Positions 1,427-25,030 of a stretch of DNA of 25,944 bases are shown here, piece after piece. The stretch is taken from positions 1-25,944 of the IMG/VR virus record IMGVR_UViG_3300009506_000171; one strand, given 5' to 3'. The notes below the pieces were generated by a model that saw nothing but the letters and a program-made list of their open reading frames with translations, searched no databases and had not been told where the DNA came from. The DNA is from a virus. Position 1 is the stretch's first letter, and every line of letters begins with the position of its first letter. A program made the position numbers and the translations under genes.

Positions 1427-2261
1427 TCAAATTGCCGAAGCGTCATGCAGGAACTGCACGATGCCGGACTGTTGCAGCAACTGTGCGCCAGTGAATGACG
1501 AGGCACGGGCATAGGAATAGTCCTGCTCGTCATTGTAGCCCACGGCGGTGTTGAGGCCCTCGCCGCTGTCGAACGCCGAACCGATGGCGTTCTGGTGGAA
1601 GAAGTAGCACTTCTCCGAAGCGGTGCCCACGCCTGTGAGCAGCGGATGGAAGATCCAGTTGTAACCGGCCCAGCGCAGGACGCGCTTGGCAGGTCCGGTC
1701 AGGAACTTCATCTCCACGTAGTCGGCGCTGTTGAACTCGTTGAGTTGCATCAGGTAGCCGCGCACGGCGGGGGTGGCCACGGCCCACATCTTGTCTTCTT
1801 CCTCGACGGGAACTTCGTTCTCGCCAAGGGTGACGGTAGCTTTCGCCACCGCTGCAAGAGACATCGTGGTCGCTGCACCAAGGTTGGTGGTTGCCCCATC
1901 GAGAGCCGAGATGATGTCGGCGTCGATGCGACGGTTCAGTACCATCCTCGTGGTGGACTGCATCAGCGCACGCTGATCGCCCTGACTTTCGAAGATGTTC
2001 CACCGGGTCTTGCGGACCAGATCGTGCCACTCGGTGAGTGTGCATTCGGTCTGTACGTTGTTGTCCGCACGAGCGGGGATGAGGCCGTTGAGGCCGCGCG
2101 TTACAGCGGCTGCGCCGCCGGAACCCGCGACGAGGAAGGTGGCCCTGTCGCCTTTGATTATTGCCTCGGTCACAGTGGTGCGCCGAAGCCACGACATGCC
2201 TTCCTCGAACTCCGCTATCAACTCCTGTCGATCAACGCGCATCATGCGCGTCAGACTGTCG
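1427..2261 (-). CDS. Major capsid (coat) protein, exon 2
   Basis: Main part of the coat protein gene. With exon 1 (3149-3171) it gives an uninterrupted 858-nt reading frame, 285 residues plus stop. The coat-protein-like part includes RVDRQELIAEFEEG, TEAIIKGDRATFLVAGSG, TRGLNGLIPARADN and EWHDLVRKTRWNIF, a pattern recalled from capsid proteins of podoviruses. The product would assemble the head shell with the scaffold encoded just upstream. Read alone, exon 2 has an in-frame ATGATG at 2245-2240, but this lacks a good ribosome binding site and would lose the N-terminal segment. The exon 2 boundary at 2261 is predicted from intron pairing (see the intron entry); the alternative is an unspliced gene starting at 2245. 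Confidence 0.82.
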
Positions 2262-3051
2262 CTTCCCCCGCAGGGGTTGGAACACTCAGTCGTTGCTGAC
2301 GGTGGAAGTGAATAATCTGGTCTATCTTGTGTTTTTTCAATCTCGCGTGGCGCGTCACCTTCGATAAAAACCGCAGGGCAAAATCAGCATCCTTCACGCC
2401 AAGATTTCGTCGCCATATCATGACATCTGGCGACTGATCGTGTTTGAACACGTTTCCGCCAAAGGCATTCCGAAGAAATTTCAGGACACCCATATCGTTA
2501 GCATGCGCGACGGCGCCGACATTGATCTGCCAGTAATTATGGGGCGGCTTCTGGTATTTCAGACGATACCATCCGTCGCCATCCAGATAACCTGCCAACC
2601 ATGCCCACGTAGGATGATTTTTCGGTTTTGCTGGCCCGGCATTTTCAATGCGAGATACCTTACTGGATGCTGTCAACTGCTCCCGGTCTTTCGACGAGAG
2701 CCAAACGCTCCTTTGTTCGCGCCATTTTTCCAGCAACCATTTCCAGTGTTTTCCCTTGATGACCATGTGCTTGATCAGGCGAGGCAAAAGCATCTCCAAA
2801 TCGGAACGCTTGCTGACAGTCCATGTGATGTACTGCTTGTCCTTGCCATATCGGCTGATGCCACCCATGCCGGTTTCTTCCGGCAGCGAGGCGACAAACC
2901 CATGATGATCGATAGCATCGGATGCCGCCAATCTCATTTGCAGCCCAAGAAAAAACACATCTTCGGCCTTCTCGTATTTCTTGAATGAGAACGATAATGA
3001 ACCATCCGCATCCAGAAGGCCTGCAAGATATTTGACCAAATTTTCCTTCAT
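2251..3051 (-). CDS. LAGLIDADG homing endonuclease inside the coat gene intron
   Basis: 266 residues; ATG at 3051 with AAGGA six bases upstream. It has two LAGLIDADG motifs: LAGLLDADG at residues 9-17 and LAGYLDGDG at 152-160. Both keep the acidic residue at the eighth position (D16, D159), so this should be an intact single-chain enzyme that cuts intronless copies of the coat gene and promotes copying of the intron into the break. The last codons cross the predicted 3' splice site and the stop (2251-2253) lies in exon 2, so the enzyme is complete only from unspliced RNA. It lacks the DTG tripeptides of nearby virion genes. Intron-encoded LAGLIDADG enzymes sometimes also act as maturases; nothing here decides that. 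Confidence 0.92.
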   Translation of the reverse strand: MKENLVKYLAGLLDADGSLSFSFKKYEKAEDVFFLGLQMRLAASDAIDHHGFVASLPEETGMGGISRYGKDKQYITWTVSKRSDLEMLLPRLIKHMVIKGKHWKWLLEKWREQRSVWLSSKDREQLTASSKVSRIENAGPAKPKNHPTWAWLAGYLDGDGWYRLKYQKPPHNYWQINVGAVAHANDMGVLKFLRNAFGGNVFKHDQSPDVMIWRRNLGVKDADFALRFLSKVTRHARLKKHKIDQIIHFHRQQRLSVPTPAGEATV

Positions 3052-3148
3052 CCCGGCTTCCTTTTGTTTCGAGCCAAGATACCTTTCATCGGGTTACCGT
3101 TTCACCGGCTCCCCGTTGTTCAGTTCCAAACCAACAATACCTTATTGG
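2262..3148 (-). mobile_element. Predicted group I intron (887 nt) interrupting the coat protein gene
   Basis: Without splicing, the first coat reading frame stops after nine codons. P1: exon bases 3154-3149 (CCAAAT) pair with intron bases 3131-3126 (GTTTGG), leaving the diagnostic U-G wobble at the 5' splice site after 3149. P10: the adjacent intron bases 3132-3138 pair with the first seven bases of exon 2 (2261-2255, CGACAGT) using five Watson-Crick pairs and two G-U pairs. The intron ends in G (2262), as group I introns do. Joining there restores the coat frame exactly. Candidate P4 (3115-3112 with 3093-3090) and P5 (3108-3106 with 3099-3097) stems lie before the endonuclease gene, and a CCCC-TGC-GGGG hairpin lies just before the 3' end. 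I did not place P3, P7 or P8. Confidence 0.78.
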
Positions 3149-3171
3149 ATTTGGGGGGCACTTTCTGCCAT
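3149..3171 (-). CDS. Major capsid (coat) protein, exon 1
   Basis: ATG at 3171 lies five bases after GAGGTGTC, a strong ribosome binding site. The exon encodes MAESAPQ plus the first two bases of an Ile codon, completed by the first base of exon 2. Unspliced, the frame ends at a TAA two codons later. A very short first exon would escape ordinary gene calling. Support comes from the binding site, the P1 and P10 pairings and exact frame restoration; it has not been compared with an intronless relative. Confidence 0.75.
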
Positions 3172-4332: not shown

Positions 4333-4647
4333 TTACTCCTTGAACAGTTCTGGCTTCAGTCGGAACATCTTGACCAGCGCGAGACCGACCGACCTCCGGC
4401 CCGCGAGGTAGTCACTGGCGTCGGGTTCGCCAGCGACAAAGGTTTCGTTGTAGGTTCCAGCGGCCTCCTCGATGATCCAGTCCAGCGCGACCTTGCAGTC
4501 GTGCGCCGAGGGTGGATCATCTCTACTGCCGATGCCGTAGAGCATGACCGCCTGCACGGCCCTGATCTGCTCCTTCGTGTAGAGCGGCGGATAATGCGGC
4601 TTGCGCCTGCGCGGGTTTGTATGGACTTTCTCCGGTTGTTCGCTCAT
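4333..4647 (-). CDS. Bbp19-family phage protein
   Basis: 104 residues, start at 4647 overlapping the portal stop by ATGA. The N-terminus is basic and Pro-rich. The body includes GRRSVGLALVKMFRL near the C-terminus, a pattern typical of the Bbp19 family (named for Bordetella phage BPP-1), which sits beside portal and scaffold genes in many podoviruses. The biochemical role of the family is unknown to me; a head-assembly role is inferred from gene order. Confidence 0.75.
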   Translation of the reverse strand: MSEQPEKVHTNPRRRKPHYPPLYTKEQIRAVQAVMLYGIGSRDDPPSAHDCKVALDWIIEEAAGTYNETFVAGEPDASDYLAGRRSVGLALVKMFRLKPELFKE

Positions 4648-6305
4648 GCAGCCTTACCGGGCGCTGGCAGCGCCTTCTGGACAGCCTCGAGACCCTTGCC
4701 ACCCTTTTCCGCTGCAGCGCCTGCCTGCTCGCCTGCCGCCAGCATCTGCATCAGTTCGGCCTGCTTCTGAAGCTGCGCCCTCTTCTCCTTGACCGCTTTT
4801 TCCGGCTTGAACCACTTGTCCTTCCATCCTGCCAGCTTCATCGCATCGCGTGTCGCAACGTCGAGATCAGCGACCTCGAGCAGCGCCGGGTCGACAGACG
4901 CTGCAGGTGCGAGAATGCGCTGCATGATATCGACGAACTGCGAAGCCTCCGCCTCCTCCGTCATGTCGGAGATCGGCGAGTGGAACGTGAAGCGAATGTC
5001 CGATCCCTGAAGCGATTTCGGCATGCCCTCGAGGGGGAAAGCCGAGTGCTTCATCATGATATTGAACGCCAGTTCGCAAAGCGGGCTGGAGTAGGACTTC
5101 TCGATCGGTTCGAAGATCGGCGATGCCCCGCGGATATGTTCCTCGATGCGTCGGCGAACCTCGAACGCCGTCATGTCGGTGTTCTCGGGGCTGGGCAGGT
5201 TGATCTTGTCCAGCATGAATGCTGCCCGGACATCCTCGCGGAGAGCCTGCGCTATCTCGAAGCCGACAGGCATGTTGCCGGACTGCTGCGTGATGGGCCT
5301 GAGAACCTCGCCAAGGCGCTCGTCGTACTCCATGTCGGCATACGTGATGCCTCCGGGGTAGAGCGGGATGTCGCCGCGGATGGCCTCGTAGACCGCGACC
5401 ATGGGTGGATCGACGTACTTCTCGCCAGCTTCCCTGAGCGTCCTGATGACCGCCTGCATGGTACGCCCGTCTGGCAGAGCCACTTCTGTCGCCATTGACC
5501 TGCCGTACTGGGATCCCGAAACCGTCATCCAGCGAGGAACGACATACGGGAAATAGTCGATGCCGACTTCCTCGATCACCTTCTCCGTCACGCGCTCGAC
5601 CATCAGGCTCGTGAAGCGGTAATTGTCGCCATTGCTTTTCTGGTGCCTGTATACTCGTTCAGGCAGAATGACGTGGCGACATTTTACCTCCTGATGAGGG
5701 TCTTCCTTGAAATACCGCAGCGTTTCCTTCGACACGCTGCTTCCGTAATACTGGACGAGTTGCTTGGCGGTCGGGTTCCAGTTGCGGTGCATCTCGTCAA
5801 CTTCGCCGTCATGGTTCTCCTTCCATGCGCAGTCGCGAAGATGATAGTTGCGAAACAGCAGGCCATCGAGGTTCGCATTTGGCTGGCCATGGATCACGGC
5901 GTTGCCGAATGTGACGTAGTCGTGGTCGGCCTGCTTGGTCGATCTCACCAGACCCGACCTTCCCTCGTACATGGCACGCCACTGGATCTCGCTCATCCTC
6001 TCGAGAAAGCGGCGTTCCGGCGAGTTCTCGTCGAGGTCGTAGTCCATGACGTGGATCGAGAACCACTTCTTGGACTGGGGCCTGAGGTTCGAGGAGAGCA
6101 GGTTGCCCAGTTCGCGGCGGGCGATCACCGGGTAGGAGGCGTAGAGATGGTCGGCATATTCCCCGCCGTCGTTCTGCGTCTCCGTAAAGTCGGCACGCTC
6201 AGGGTAGAAGTTCAGCGCCAGTTCCTGCCACATGCTGTCGACGGTTCGTTTCTTGCCGAACAGCTTGTCTCCTATTTTGATGGCATCTCGGGCGCGTTGA
6301 TCCAT
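4644..6305 (-). CDS. Head-to-tail connector (portal) protein
   Basis: 553 residues from the ATG at 6305, which overlaps the previous stop (TGATG); CAGGA lies about nine bases upstream. A longer frame from 6377 exists but would overlap the upstream gene by 73 bases. The sequence has the pattern of podovirus collar/connector proteins: an early FYPERADF segment, PQSKKWFSI, a QADHDYVTFGNAV segment, PYVVPRWMTVSGSQYGRS, and a long charged helical C-terminus ending in Ala/Gly/Gln-rich residues. It forms the dodecameric ring at one head vertex through which DNA enters and leaves. Size is within the 500-600 residues usual for the family. Confidence 0.93.
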   Translation of the reverse strand: MDQRARDAIKIGDKLFGKKRTVDSMWQELALNFYPERADFTETQNDGGEYADHLYASYPVIARRELGNLLSSNLRPQSKKWFSIHVMDYDLDENSPERRFLERMSEIQWRAMYEGRSGLVRSTKQADHDYVTFGNAVIHGQPNANLDGLLFRNYHLRDCAWKENHDGEVDEMHRNWNPTAKQLVQYYGSSVSKETLRYFKEDPHQEVKCRHVILPERVYRHQKSNGDNYRFTSLMVERVTEKVIEEVGIDYFPYVVPRWMTVSGSQYGRSMATEVALPDGRTMQAVIRTLREAGEKYVDPPMVAVYEAIRGDIPLYPGGITYADMEYDERLGEVLRPITQQSGNMPVGFEIAQALREDVRAAFMLDKINLPSPENTDMTAFEVRRRIEEHIRGASPIFEPIEKSYSSPLCELAFNIMMKHSAFPLEGMPKSLQGSDIRFTFHSPISDMTEEAEASQFVDIMQRILAPAASVDPALLEVADLDVATRDAMKLAGWKDKWFKPEKAVKEKRAQLQKQAELMQMLAAGEQAGAAAEKGGKGLEAVQKALPAPGKAA

Positions 6306-6697
6306 CAACCGTATCCTGCGATCGTTTTCCTGCGCGGCAGGCGTGGGGTTTTCGCATTCTCCACCGTCTGCATCCATTCAGGAAGAGGCGGCATTGGCGG
6401 CGGCTGCGGGTTTTTGGCATTCTCCACAGTCGTCATCCACTCGGGAAGAGGTGGCATTGGCGGCGGCTGCGGGTTTTGCAAATCTCTCACATCCTTCGCC
6501 CATTCAGGCCCGGTACCACCGAGGCCTTCCTTGACGATGGTGTCCCGCTGCCCCTCTTTCACCATGTTGGTCCTCTTCTGTCCGCCCCTGTCAGAGATCA
6601 CGGCTGTTTGTCCGCGGTACGCCTCCTTGGCCTTGTCGTTCGACGAAAGATAGGGGGTCTGCTTGACGTGCCCACCGCCTCCGAACAAGCCACTCAT
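6305..6697 (-). CDS. Small phage protein with a duplicated Pro-rich 21-residue unit
   Basis: 130 residues from ATG 6697 (GGAGG nine bases upstream); longer starts lack support. It begins MSGLFGGGG and ends with two tandem 21-residue units built around NPQPPPMPPLPEWM and TVENAK. At DNA level the units are 63 bp each (6353-6415 and 6416-6478) with only scattered differences, so the duplication is fairly recent. Proteins opening with a Gly-rich 'GLFGG' and Pro-rich segments are common between terminase and portal genes of podoviruses; function is unknown. Confidence 0.75.
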   Translation of the reverse strand: MSGLFGGGGHVKQTPYLSSNDKAKEAYRGQTAVISDRGGQKRTNMVKEGQRDTIVKEGLGGTGPEWAKDVRDLQNPQPPPMPPLPEWMTTVENAKNPQPPPMPPLPEWMQTVENAKTPRLPRRKTIAGYG

Positions 6698-6699
6698 GA

Positions 6700-6909
6700 T
6701 TATGTCCCTCCGCCAAGATAGCGTCCCGTCGAGCCCGTCATGTCGCGAAGGCTTTCGCTCATGATGGTCGATCGGCGACCTGCCGCAGCCTCGCGGCGCT
6801 TGCGCCATGCCAAGCGCTGCTTGTCGGCGTTCGGGTCTTCCTGCGTGGGAAGACGGACAACTTTCGGTGCAGGTATCTTCTGCTCTGGAATGTCAGGTGA
6901 TCCACCCAT
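6700..6909 (-). CDS. Small conserved phage protein between terminase and portal
   Basis: 69 residues; ATG at 6909 with AGGAG seven bases upstream. A Pro-rich start with VVRLPTQEDPNADKQR is followed by a basic helix and GRRSTIMSE near the C-terminus. This layout (R-x-P-x-x-x-D-P, then G-R-x-S-T) recurs in small phage proteins found beside portal genes. No enzyme motif is present. Tight spacing (three bases after the terminase stop) shows that it belongs to the head operon. Confidence 0.75.
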   Translation of the reverse strand: MGGSPDIPEQKIPAPKVVRLPTQEDPNADKQRLAWRKRREAAAGRRSTIMSESLRDMTGSTGRYLGGGT

Positions 6910-10174: not shown

Positions 10175-10193
10175 GGATTACCTGCCGTTCCGT

Positions 10194-10653
10194 GCCTAGC
10201 CACGCCTTGCGTTGCCAGCCTGACCATACCCATCCTTGCCTGCCGTGCCAAGCCTTGCCCAGCCTCGCCAAGCCCTGCCTGCCAAGCCCGGCCACGCCGT
10301 GCCGTGCCTCTCCCGGTCATGCCATGCCTGCCTTGTCTTGCCATACCTTGCCTTGCCGCGCCTCGCCTCTCCCGGTCATGCCTCGCCAAGCCTGCCTCGC
10401 CAAGCCCCGTCTTTCCGCGCCCCGCCTCGCCGTGCCTGCCTTGCCAAGCCTCACCTCGCCAATCCTAGCCAAGCCAAGCCCTGCCTGCCCAGCCTCGCCA
10501 TGCCTCGCCATGCCTCGCCACGCCTGCCTTGCCTGACCATGCCACCCCCCGCCATGCCACACCTCGCCTGCCTCGCCAAGCCCCGCCGCGCCATGCCAAG
10601 CCCCGCCCAGCCGCGCCTGCCCAGCCTTGCCTAGCCATGCCCAGCCATGCCAA
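10194..10653. repeat. Long GCCNN pentanucleotide array
   Basis: About 460 bp made almost wholly of 5-base units GCCNN on the plus strand (GCCAA, GCCTT, GCCTC, GCCAT and so on), with occasional 4-base GCCT units that shift the phase. An 18-bp block, GCCTCTCCCGGTCATGCC, occurs twice 59 bp apart (10306-10323 and 10365-10382), showing local duplication. It fills the gap between a terminator (10651-10677) and the kinase gene start (10174). Several frames stay open through it, but their products are Pro/Ala/Ser/Cys- or Arg/Gly-rich low complexity and are not believable proteins. Function is unknown. Confidence 0.92.
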
Positions 10654-19233: not shown

Positions 19234-19801
19234 CACTGCGGATGACCTCCTGTTGAAGTTCATCCCGTTTAGCATCGTTGCTGTAGAATTTCCACTCCCG
19301 TTCGAAACGATTGTGGACGATCTCGACCGCGGCCTTTGAAAGCGGCCTGCGACGGGAATTGGTCCTGCGCTCCTTGGTCACGTTGAGGCGTGGCACGGGC
19401 TTGGTGACGCCGATGGCCCGGAAGAACCTGTCCATGTCCTCGGCACGCCAGATCTCGTCGAAGATCAGGCGACCATAGGTGTCGGTGAACCAGTCGTACG
19501 GAGTGAAGCAGCGTTCGGCGAACTCGGCGTCGTCGATGTCCTTCTCGGCGATGCCCCATGCCTTCCAGCCCTTGTGGGCGTTGTAGCAGGTAGTAACCCA
19601 CTCGACGGGGTGCCGGACGAAACCTATCCGCCTTGCGGTGCGGTAGTCCGCCCAGCCGTCCCAGTCCCGCGTCTTCGCGTGGTCGTCCCCGCCGCAATGG
19701 GAGACATCGCGGCAGGTCTTCTTCATGTGCCGTATGAACGACGTGGACCCCGTGCAGGGAACGCGGACGTAGAGGAAGTCGTGCTCCCCGCAGTAGTGCA
19801 T
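19190..19801 (-). CDS. Sulfotransferase-like protein
   Basis: 203 residues; ATG 19801 overlaps the previous stop (TAATG). VPCTGSTSF (14-22) fits the phosphate-binding loop after strand one, and IGFVRHPVEWVTTCY (59-73) matches the conserved R-x-P segment that binds the 3'-phosphate of PAPS. It would transfer sulfate from PAPS to a sugar hydroxyl. The C-terminal ~15 residues overlap the next gene in another frame. It is the first enzyme gene of the accessory island, directly after fibre-type genes, so a virion or host glycan is the likely target. Confidence 0.75.
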   Translation of the reverse strand: MHYCGEHDFLYVRVPCTGSTSFIRHMKKTCRDVSHCGGDDHAKTRDWDGWADYRTARRIGFVRHPVEWVTTCYNAHKGWKAWGIAEKDIDDAEFAERCFTPYDWFTDTYGRLIFDEIWRAEDMDRFFRAIGVTKPVPRLNVTKERRTNSRRRPLSKAAVEIVHNRFEREWKFYSNDAKRDELQQEVIRSGNQEAFQHAQTHHP

Positions 19802-20658
19802 TACAGGCCTGTGTCCCTCGGTCCCGACACGTTGACCCAGTCGATGTCGAGCAGGGCCATGCCGCCCGTGTCCGACCAGAACAGGATCTGTGGAGCGAGA
19901 GGGATGGCCATGCCGAGCGGCGAGGAAATCGAACCCTTCGGCTCGCCGTTGACGTAGAACGTCGCCGTGCCGCCCGTATCGGATGGCCCGTGGTGGATGG
20001 CCACCTCGAGGTCGACGTACTTGCCGAGCGTGTAGCCCGTGTCGAGCACGACAGGTGTCCTGTTGGTGTCGCCGTTCACCGCGTAGGCCACCAGCCCGGT
20101 GTCACCCGATCCGCGGTTGGAAAAGCCGATGCCGACAGCATTGGTCGCCACCGATACGATGGCCCCGCCAGTGTCGATCACGGGTGCCTCCGCCACGTTG
20201 GTGTCGGTAAAGCCCATCCACATGGCGCACTTGGTGAAGCCCGTGTCTGAAATCCTGACGCGGGCAGCGAGCCTTACAGGTGCCTTGCCATCGTTTGGTC
20301 CTGCTCCTTGGTTGCCCTTCCACTGCATTGCAGCGCTGATACCAAGCTTTGCCTGCTCGGTTGGCGTTGCCCCGGTGGCGAGACGCAGCACGCCGCCTGT
20401 CGAGTTTCTGATGGAGACCACGGCACCCGTGTCGGCCTTGAAGATGCGCCACGTCGGGTCGGTGTTGTCGAGGGAACGCCCGGTGTCGCCGACGAAGTCG
20501 TCGAAGAGTGCGACGATGTCGGGTGATCCCGGCAGGGCGATGGAGGCTCGACCCGGCATGCCGCCGCCGCCGACGAACCCACCGGCTGCGCCGATCTGGT
20601 CGTCCTTGGTGAGGTATGCCCTCGAGCCATGGAGTGAAACCTGTCTCTTGGTAGTCAT
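19801..20658 (-). CDS. LamG/concanavalin A-like virion protein
   Basis: 285 residues; ATG 20658 with AAGGA upstream. After a ~45-residue Gly-rich start, the rest is beta-rich, with segments such as AARVRISDTGFTKCAMWMGF and KYVDLEVAIHHGP typical of a jelly-roll sugar-binding domain, and FYVNGEPKGSI near the C-terminus. This suits a tail fibre, spike or head-surface protein that binds a glycan. Nine Asp-Thr-Gly tripeptides occur in 285 residues. It sits between the repeat-bearing fibre-type gene and the sulfotransferase. Confidence 0.72.
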   Translation of the reverse strand: MTTKRQVSLHGSRAYLTKDDQIGAAGGFVGGGGMPGRASIALPGSPDIVALFDDFVGDTGRSLDNTDPTWRIFKADTGAVVSIRNSTGGVLRLATGATPTEQAKLGISAAMQWKGNQGAGPNDGKAPVRLAARVRISDTGFTKCAMWMGFTDTNVAEAPVIDTGGAIVSVATNAVGIGFSNRGSGDTGLVAYAVNGDTNRTPVVLDTGYTLGKYVDLEVAIHHGPSDTGGTATFYVNGEPKGSISSPLGMAIPLAPQILFWSDTGGMALLDIDWVNVSGPRDTGL

Positions 20659-23526: not shown

Positions 23527-23967
23527 TCAGGTGTAGGTCCAAGTGATGATGCCGGATGCGTTCCAAGTGATCTTGAAGTCGGTGCCTGCGTCAGCCGTCT
23601 TGACTTCGCCGAAATCGATGTAGACGAGAGGCTTGTTCAGCGTCTTGGCGTAGATGACGGCAGCATCGGCTGGGCCGATGGCACCGCCTGTCGCGGTCAC
23701 CGTGATGTCGGCTGCGTCAAGCTTGGCATCGTTGGTGGTGACGATGGATACGCCGCATGCAGTGAGCAGCATGCCGCCCGTGTCCCACTGGTTGCCGTAG
23801 ACTTCCTGCGTGCCCGTGTCGTCCACGTTGTCCATCGATGTCTCGGACGCGACGAATGGAGCACCCGTGTCGAGCAGTTCGACGTACAGGTCGGTCAAGT
23901 CCAGCCCGCCGCCGGTATCGGCGAACAGGCGGACGGTGTGATCGTAAAGTGATGCTGTGACGGCCAT
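23527..23967 (-). CDS. Virion-type protein with Asp-Thr-Gly tripeptides
   Basis: 146 residues; ATG 23967 shares bases with the previous stop (TAATG), with AGAGG upstream. Beta-rich with YDHTVRLF, NDAKLDAADITVTATGGAIGPADAAVIY and YIDFGEVKTADAGTDFKI. This arrangement is recalled from phage minor structural proteins in fibre or decoration gene clusters. Four Asp-Thr-Gly tripeptides lie in its first ~65 residues, where recalled relatives mostly have other residues. Function as a structural protein is inferred. Confidence 0.72.
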   Translation of the reverse strand: MAVTASLYDHTVRLFADTGGGLDLTDLYVELLDTGAPFVASETSMDNVDDTGTQEVYGNQWDTGGMLLTACGVSIVTTNDAKLDAADITVTATGGAIGPADAAVIYAKTLNKPLVYIDFGEVKTADAGTDFKITWNASGIITWTYT

Positions 23968-24502: not shown

Positions 24503-25030
24503 TCAGTTCCCCCTCTTGCCGATTTCCTCGAACACGAGCGTGCCTGCCATGGAGATGGGGTCGGCAGCAGCCGAGATCCGGACAACGAAACGGTCACCCG
24601 GCTCGATGCAGATCATTTCGTTGGTTTCGGGATAATACCACCAGCCTGCCTGCACGTTGAAGGCATCGGAGATGATGGTGCGGGCATTGACCGACGCGGT
24701 GCCTGTATCGGTGGCCAGCACATCGTTGGAGCGCACGACAGTGCATCCACCGCCGCCCGTGTCGCCTGTCTGCAGGAGCGGCGTGGGCGTCACCGCGATG
24801 CCGCCGCCTCCCTCCCCGCCCGTGTCGTCGCTGGAATTGTCGAAGCGGATGATCCTGACGTTCAGCATTTCTGCCTCGGCGTCACCCGCGTCACTGTACT
24901 GGCCAACCCGCACTTCGCGGATCTTGACCATGGAATTGGCCGGTGCCGTGACCTCGAAGAGATCATGTCCGCCTGCCTTGTTCGAGGGACCAGTGTCACC
25001 CTCGACCACGGCAGTGTAGATTTCTGCCAT
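24503..25030 (-). CDS. Virion-type protein with Asp-Thr-Gly tripeptides
   Basis: 175 residues; ATG 25030 with GAGG upstream. MAEIYTAVVEG, then DLFEVTAPANSMVKIREVRVGQ, a long Gly-rich loop region, DAFNVQAGWWYYP and AGTLVFEEIG. A beta-sandwich protein is likely; the pattern is recalled from phage surface or decoration proteins. Four Asp-Thr-Gly tripeptides, mostly in loops. Structural role is inferred from context. Confidence 0.72.
   Translation of the reverse strand: MAEIYTAVVEGDTGPSNKAGGHDLFEVTAPANSMVKIREVRVGQYSDAGDAEAEMLNVRIIRFDNSSDDTGGEGGGGIAVTPTPLLQTGDTGGGGCTVVRSNDVLATDTGTASVNARTIISDAFNVQAGWWYYPETNEMICIEPGDRFVVRISAAADPISMAGTLVFEEIGKRGN

Follow-up and report, generated by a model that had tools for sequence, protein, structure and literature searches.

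How does a tailed phage make its main shell protein when the first codons of the capsid gene and the bulk of that gene lie on either side of an open reading frame (ORF) for another protein? This arrangement is found in the 25,944 bases analysed here (the window), a virus record that is a metagenomic contig and not a cultured phage. On its minus strand, a head module of the podovirus type (Table 1) leads into a capsid region, whose reading frame ends at 1427 and matches PF19821 (5.9e-20) and phrog_3437, 'major head protein' (2.9e-46). The source of the window is a tailed phage in which the gene for this protein is split by an intron. A first-pass annotation had proposed a split near the start of the gene by a group I intron bearing a LAGLIDADG ORF, and the parts that it listed on the minus strand are present: a short first exon from the ATG at 3171, the ORF at 3051-2251 and the capsid bulk ending at 1427. 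Empty sites, core covariation and the way the enzyme is distributed strongly support this proposal, but the splice junctions and the P1 and P10 helices had to be redrawn or dropped.

Boundaries of the split capsid gene

A scan for capsid relatives returned 56 loci, in 27 of which the corrected capsid protein aligns without interruption over residues 1-277. The N-termini of these intronless relatives read MAESAPQIQY-RQELV or close variants, with the uninterrupted start MAESAPQIQYRQEL. In the window, the 5' junction of the intron reads ...CAA ATC CAA T|AA GGT and the 3' junction ...GCGTTG|AT CGA CAG GAG. When T3144 is joined to A2232, the codon TAT for Tyr10 is created and the product has 834 nt and 277 residues. 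Because this junction yields both Tyr10 and a protein like those of the relatives, we place the intron at 3143-2233 (911 nt). Aligning the joined exons with intronless capsids, a check proposed by the first-pass annotation, gave an end-to-end match at the corrected junction, with 84% identity to the capsid of L001. Joining at the predicted sites in relatives that retain both ends likewise gave capsid proteins of 277-283 residues. With the junction set to restore the frame, the intron ends in G in the window, as had been expected, and in all relatives except L073. The intron boundaries and the empty sites are thus established by sequence comparison.

The 5' junction itself carries an in-frame stop, as exon T3144 and the first two intron bases form TAA; the earlier annotation had put this stop two codons into the intron. 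In each of the eight introns at codon 10 for which both ends are available, the Tyr codon becomes UAA or UAG at the junction, and translation of unspliced mRNA would therefore stop after nine residues. The annotation had also foreseen that a gene finder starting at 2245 would truncate the capsid protein. The mis-start is real, although its extent differs: the true first 10 residues are lost and 5 false ones (MMRVD) are added. With capsid introns of this family, gene callers therefore place the start of the major capsid protein wrongly or overlook the protein.

In four other capsid loci (L046, L047, L049 and L050), the capsid frame runs on upstream of the match into a hydrophobic stretch (for example, ...AERHLVFYVDTPYQTQY), and the usual ATG is absent. 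Elsewhere in the window, DTG tripeptides crowd four minus-strand proteins (1146-1412, 19801-20658, 23527-23967 and 24503-25030), with 3, 9, 4 and 4 copies, respectively, against 0.14-0.31 expected per protein; 21 other ORFs contain none. Several are kept in relatives of the 1146-1412 protein. A repeated DNA word was rejected as the source, as the codons vary, which makes this a protein-level pattern. Positions 10192-10651 (also 472-530) are occupied by degenerate C-rich repeats, TGCCTCGCCA being one of the units, in many overlapping periods, with short ORFs in several frames at 10192-10651. A tandem repeat of 63 bases, present in 2.1 copies that match at 88%, lies at 6345-6477 within the ORF at 6305-6808.

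Table 1 Coordinates of the capsid locus, intron helices and head module
Feature	Position	Strand	Basis
Exon 1, major capsid gene, 28 nt (MAESAPQIQ and first base of Tyr10)	3144..3171	-	Matches MAESAPQIQYRQEL of intronless relatives
Group I intron, 911 nt; first base A3143 after U3144, last base G2233	2233..3143	-	Empty-site relatives, core covariation, joined exons
Exon 2, major capsid gene, 806 nt with stop	1427..2232	-	PF19821, phrog_3437
LAGLIDADG homing endonuclease ORF, 266 aa, two motifs (LAGLLDADG, LAGYLDGDG)	2251..3051	-	PF00961 9.8e-11
ORF codons ~251-266, doubling as P6', P7, P3', P8, P7'	2251..2299	-	Third-position divergence falls
P1: 3148-3142 (CCAAU|AA) with 3137-3131 (UUGUUGG)	3131..3148	-	U3144.G3135 wobble at 5' splice site
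P3 5' strand UGGAAC, with 2283-2278 GUUCCA	3123..3128	-	Compensatory changes in 6/6 pairs
P4: 3115-3112 CGGG with 3093-3090 CCCG, enclosing P5	3090..3115	-	All 4 pairs kept in 16 sequences; compensatory changes in one pair
P5: 3108-3106 CCG with 3099-3097 CGG	3097..3108	-	By eye
P6 5' strand UGA, with 2299-2297 UCA; ORF in P6 loop	3086..3088	-	3/3 pairs compensatory
P7 5' strand GACUG, with 2258-2254 CAGUC	2287..2291	-	5/5 pairs kept in 16 sequences
P8 hairpin CCCC (2276-2273) / GGGG (2268-2265)	2265..2276	-	4/4 pairs compensatory
P9 hairpin ACGCGCA/UGCGCGU (2251-2245 with 2241-2235) and terminal U-G	2233..2251	-	By eye; equivalent hairpin in relatives
Terminase	8595-6913	-	Podovirus-type head module
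Connector	6377-4644	-	PF12236 1.7e-74
Further head-module protein, before the capsid region	4330-3371	-	Podovirus-type head module

The predicted ribozyme core and its endonuclease

A scan based on the endonuclease gave 22 loci, and removal of the ORF allowed 16 cores to be aligned. P3, P4, P6, P7 and P8 are paired in 100% of 351 scorable cells, and both sides change in 15 of the 22 pairs across these 16 introns. Core covariation was 0.524, compared with 0.187 in shuffled alignments and 0.03-0.11 in slid ones, and pairing fell to 24-46% when the partner strand was slid by 1-3 columns. P6 varies as UGA/UCA, UGG/CCA, CGG/CCG, CGA/UCG or CUG/CAG among homologues, and in P7 one G-C is swapped for A-U in 3 of 16 sequences. 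RNAalifold independently recovered P3, P4, P6 and P8; P7 is beyond its prediction because it forms a pseudoknot with P3. In the 3' core, the J8/7-P7 strand GAAGCGACAGUC is similar to the consensus of RF00028, GAAGAUAUAGUC. On these alignments, a compact group I core is present. It amounts to about 125 nt, with 58 nt up to the end of the 5' strand of P6 and 67 nt from its 3' strand to G2233, and its halves lie about 785 nt apart.

Because the family-wide MAFFT alignment is poor at P1, P5 and P9, P1 was tested in each sequence separately, with P5 and P9 judged only by eye. P1 with a U.G at the splice site occurs in 17 introns, with all five pairs in 15 and four of five in 2. Six contexts of the last five exon bases (CCAAU, UCAGU, CCAGU, GGCAU, GGAAU and GCGGU) each pair with the guide of their own intron, and exon and guide change together: CAA/UUG in the window versus CAG/CUG elsewhere, and GGAAU/GUUCC in L068 versus GGCAU/GUGCC in its neighbours. 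The 5' splice site of the divergent L073 departs from the U.G rule, and for this reason L073 was excluded from the junction tests. We recognised no peripheral P2, P7.1 or P9.1 in the intron, and unaided self-splicing is uncertain given so small a core without recognised peripheral helices.

The first-pass annotation had named a covariance-model search without a group I core as evidence against its intron. Taken literally, that is what we found, as RF00028 has no match in the window, whether the gathering score or a cut-off of E up to 10 is applied, nor in ten relatives; yet the 16 homologues support the core. The same search detects an ORF-less group I intron in the L036 capsid gene (70.8 bits). 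The silence of RF00028 apparently arises from the minimal core and from the 801-nt ORF that splits P6 open. A match to RF00028 is an operational criterion of group I membership and not a biological one; the model is known to be incomplete, and its matches to phage introns are split by nuclease loops (PMC11878797). Weak Rfam FTHFS, snoRNA and CRISPR matches in the window were rejected as chance.

The ORF in the P6 loop retains the acidic residues of its two motifs, with D14, D16 and D157 invariant and D159 kept in at least 90% of 18 homologues. Its predicted fold (pLDDT 91.5) matches I-SmaMI, I-MsoI and I-OnuI with Foldseek E values of 1e-14 to 1e-12. As judged from sequence and model, the product is an intact two-motif, monomeric LAGLIDADG enzyme with predicted cleavage activity. 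In codons 1-250, divergence from eight relatives is 0.20-0.40, 0.12-0.31 and 0.57-0.69 at positions 1, 2 and 3, and the fastest change being at third positions indicates constraint at the protein level. In codons 251-266, third-position divergence is 0.07-0.40, a rough figure from 8-15 codons only, and enzyme residues 258-266 are predicted to be disordered. This switch at about codon 251 marks, by codon-wise comparison, where the RNA constraint begins. Scanning genome contigs with the endonuclease found no relatives.

Among the homologues, the LAGLIDADG ORF of L057 (3772-3920), L060 (940-1104), L067 (2440-2598), L062 and L069 continues through the P8 loop and ends in a short Cys/His zinc-finger-like segment, making the intron about 100 nt longer; the 49-residue extension of L057 matches HNH-endonuclease profiles (phrog_5351, 6.4e-6). 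In L085 (704-760), the same 3' core motif follows a different LAGLIDADG ORF (CYLAGIIDGEG), with no downstream capsid exon recognised.

Insertion sites and cultured Pseudomonas phages

By tblastn, the same capsid family adjoins or surrounds the element in 18 of the 22 enzyme loci. Judged from reading frames, L075 and L077 map to a different capsid gene, as L074 probably does. Because relatives were recruited through either enzyme or capsid, the search itself accounts for part of the apparent bias towards capsid genes; the fairer sample is the one drawn with the enzyme. Introns with both ends at codon 10 are found in the window, L057, L058, L059, L060, L061, L063 and L069, and others retain one end; L071 has its 5' end and exon 1 in common with L059. 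Codon 40 is occupied in L067, codon 79 in L034, L035, L053, L065, L066, L068 and L072, and codon 17 probably in L070, of which only the 3' end is available. Homologous introns, aligned against the capsid, occupy at least three sites within one capsid gene, and many capsid relatives carry empty sites. The capsid gene of L053 also has a second, different intron near codon 200 (~4364-5212), with another endonuclease-like ORF and a weak RF00028 match (23.2 bits), giving two introns in one capsid gene.

In a tree of the endonucleases, the seven site-79 enzymes group together (support 100/100), whereas in the capsid tree a matching group of five capsids is rejected (p-AU 4.4e-7). The capsids of the window and L034 are 83% identical and their enzymes 54%, whereas those of L034 and L065 are 50% identical and their enzymes 70%. 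Enzymes thus group by site and capsids do not, which points to horizontal, site-wise spread, as homing predicts.

The family also reaches cultured phages. Pseudomonas phage HHBS10_2 (PQ287653), which forms plaques, encodes an enzyme 45% identical to that of the window, and its capsid gene (PF25209, 3.1e-12; phrog_267, 4.7e-57) holds an 885-nt homologous intron after codon 13, with AGAGU/GCUCU and a U.G in P1. Phage O4, 93-98% identical around the intron, has an uninterrupted gene that matches the junction GAGAGT|GAACAA at every base, and TC6 (98-99% identical) has the same empty site as judged from BLAST boundaries. The viability of HHBS10_2 requires an expressed capsid gene and would thus imply splicing. 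In its record, the enzyme is labelled 'HNH endonuclease', the capsid gene is unannotated and an antisense ORF is called over exon 2; the isolation paper does not mention an intron or the capsid. HHBS10_2 and its intronless near-twins TC6 and O4 offer a ready system for studying splicing and homing in an essential, highly expressed phage gene. A more distant enzyme lies directly upstream of the annotated terL in J2-1.

Competing readings and known introns

Could the window be read without an intron? An in-frame ATG at 2245 and the lack of an Rfam match would fit a capsid gene that starts there, downstream of a free-standing homing endonuclease gene. We regard this as very unlikely: the ten residues conserved in relatives are encoded by 3171-3144, position 2245 falls within P9, the core covaries, and this gene is also split by homologous elements deep within its coding region, at codons 40 and 79. 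Nor do the capsid genes of relatives without the intron begin at the position corresponding to 2245, the finding that the first-pass annotation had said would undo its intron. The junctions that it drew itself, with a 23-nt exon 1 ending at T3149 and exon 2 starting near 2261, have a next to negligible chance of being right, even though the resulting 858-nt frame is open and CCAAAU (3154-3149) pairs with GUUUGG (3131-3126) to a U.G end. That product, MAESAPQIDSLTRMMRVDRQEL, contains an extra DSLTRMMRVD that occurs in no relative and lacks QY, and intronless relatives put the end of exon 1 at 3144 and the start of exon 2 at 2232. The pairing is a chance alternative to the real P1, and the seven-pair P10 using 2261-2255 is also due to chance, overlapping the 3' strand of P7, which such splicing would break; the best true P10 in the window has 3 pairs only. 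The corrected junction, by comparison, fits every homologue.

A third possibility keeps the same group I intron and refines the best explanation, making splicing dependent on the LAGLIDADG protein as both maturase and endonuclease. The very small core without recognised peripheral helices, an ORF whose coding reaches into that core and a DNA-pattern scan that found no ORF-less core copies (the pattern being exact and narrow) would agree with it. However, ORFs overlapping the core are already known in other group I introns (PMC3984707), a single exact-pattern scan says little about absence, and the codon pattern is equally consistent with selection on the endonuclease; we consider such dependence quite unlikely.

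We have high confidence that codon 10 (Tyr) of the major capsid gene is split behind its first base by a mobile group I intron with a LAGLIDADG enzyme. In the mechanism that we propose, the intron would fold in the late mRNA (P1, P3-P8, P4-P6, P7 and P9), a guanosine would attack after U3144, and the freed exon 1 would attack after G2233 to give the joined 834-nt capsid message. The U|AA stop would ensure that unspliced RNA yields no capsid and would keep ribosomes off the ribozyme. The ORF would provide a monomeric endonuclease that cuts capsid genes lacking the intron in co-infecting relatives, at the corresponding site, and repair of the cut gene would copy the intron in. A more speculative reading, unlikely but worth stating, is that this family has specialised in the capsid genes of phages and serves as a weapon in competition between co-infecting phages. 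Its enzyme would then cut a competitor's essential late capsid gene at several evolved targets, and carriers would win mixed infections with or without copying of the intron.

The T4 td intron with I-TevI is a phage group I intron whose endonuclease ORF is looped out of P6, as in the window; it differs in its GIY-YIG enzyme, its host gene (thymidylate synthase) and its larger core with peripheral helices. I-OnuI, I-SmaMI and I-MsoI, which are organellar enzymes, share the fold (TM up to ~0.7) and LAGLIDADG motifs with acidic residues, but are only 12-19% identical to the window enzyme. The L036 intron is also group I and lies in a homologous capsid gene, but it has an Rfam-detectable core, no long ORF and another insertion point, and falls outside the window family. 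The intron-encoded endonuclease of the jumbo phage PhiPA3 has been shown experimentally to mediate interference between co-infecting phages (PMC11620839); it resembles the window enzyme as a phage intron-encoded nuclease, and action during co-infection may extend to the window family.

Capsid introns with LAGLIDADG enzymes are already known, and the window adds another. The mycobacteriophage LittleE (Cluster J) has a spliced major capsid gene intron with a LAGLIDADG ORF, for which splicing in vivo was demonstrated by RT-PCR and N-terminal sequencing (PMC3706429), and a passage of the same paper cites another capsid intron in Tuc2009. The LittleE intron (~820 nt) is similar in its host gene, the U before the intron and the terminal G. 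It differs in belonging to a different phage group and in having its ORF, of 177 residues and I-CreI-like, on the opposite strand; it was called 'most likely group I', its core was not worked out and one capsid insertion site was described. Compared with the literature in open PMC papers, the present analysis adds the correct boundaries, a compact core family that RF00028 does not score, and its recurrence at several sites and in two Pfam capsid families with site-wise horizontal spread. Capsid-gene introns have been known from single cases, whereas here one compact family missed by Rfam recurs and appears to move between phage lineages.
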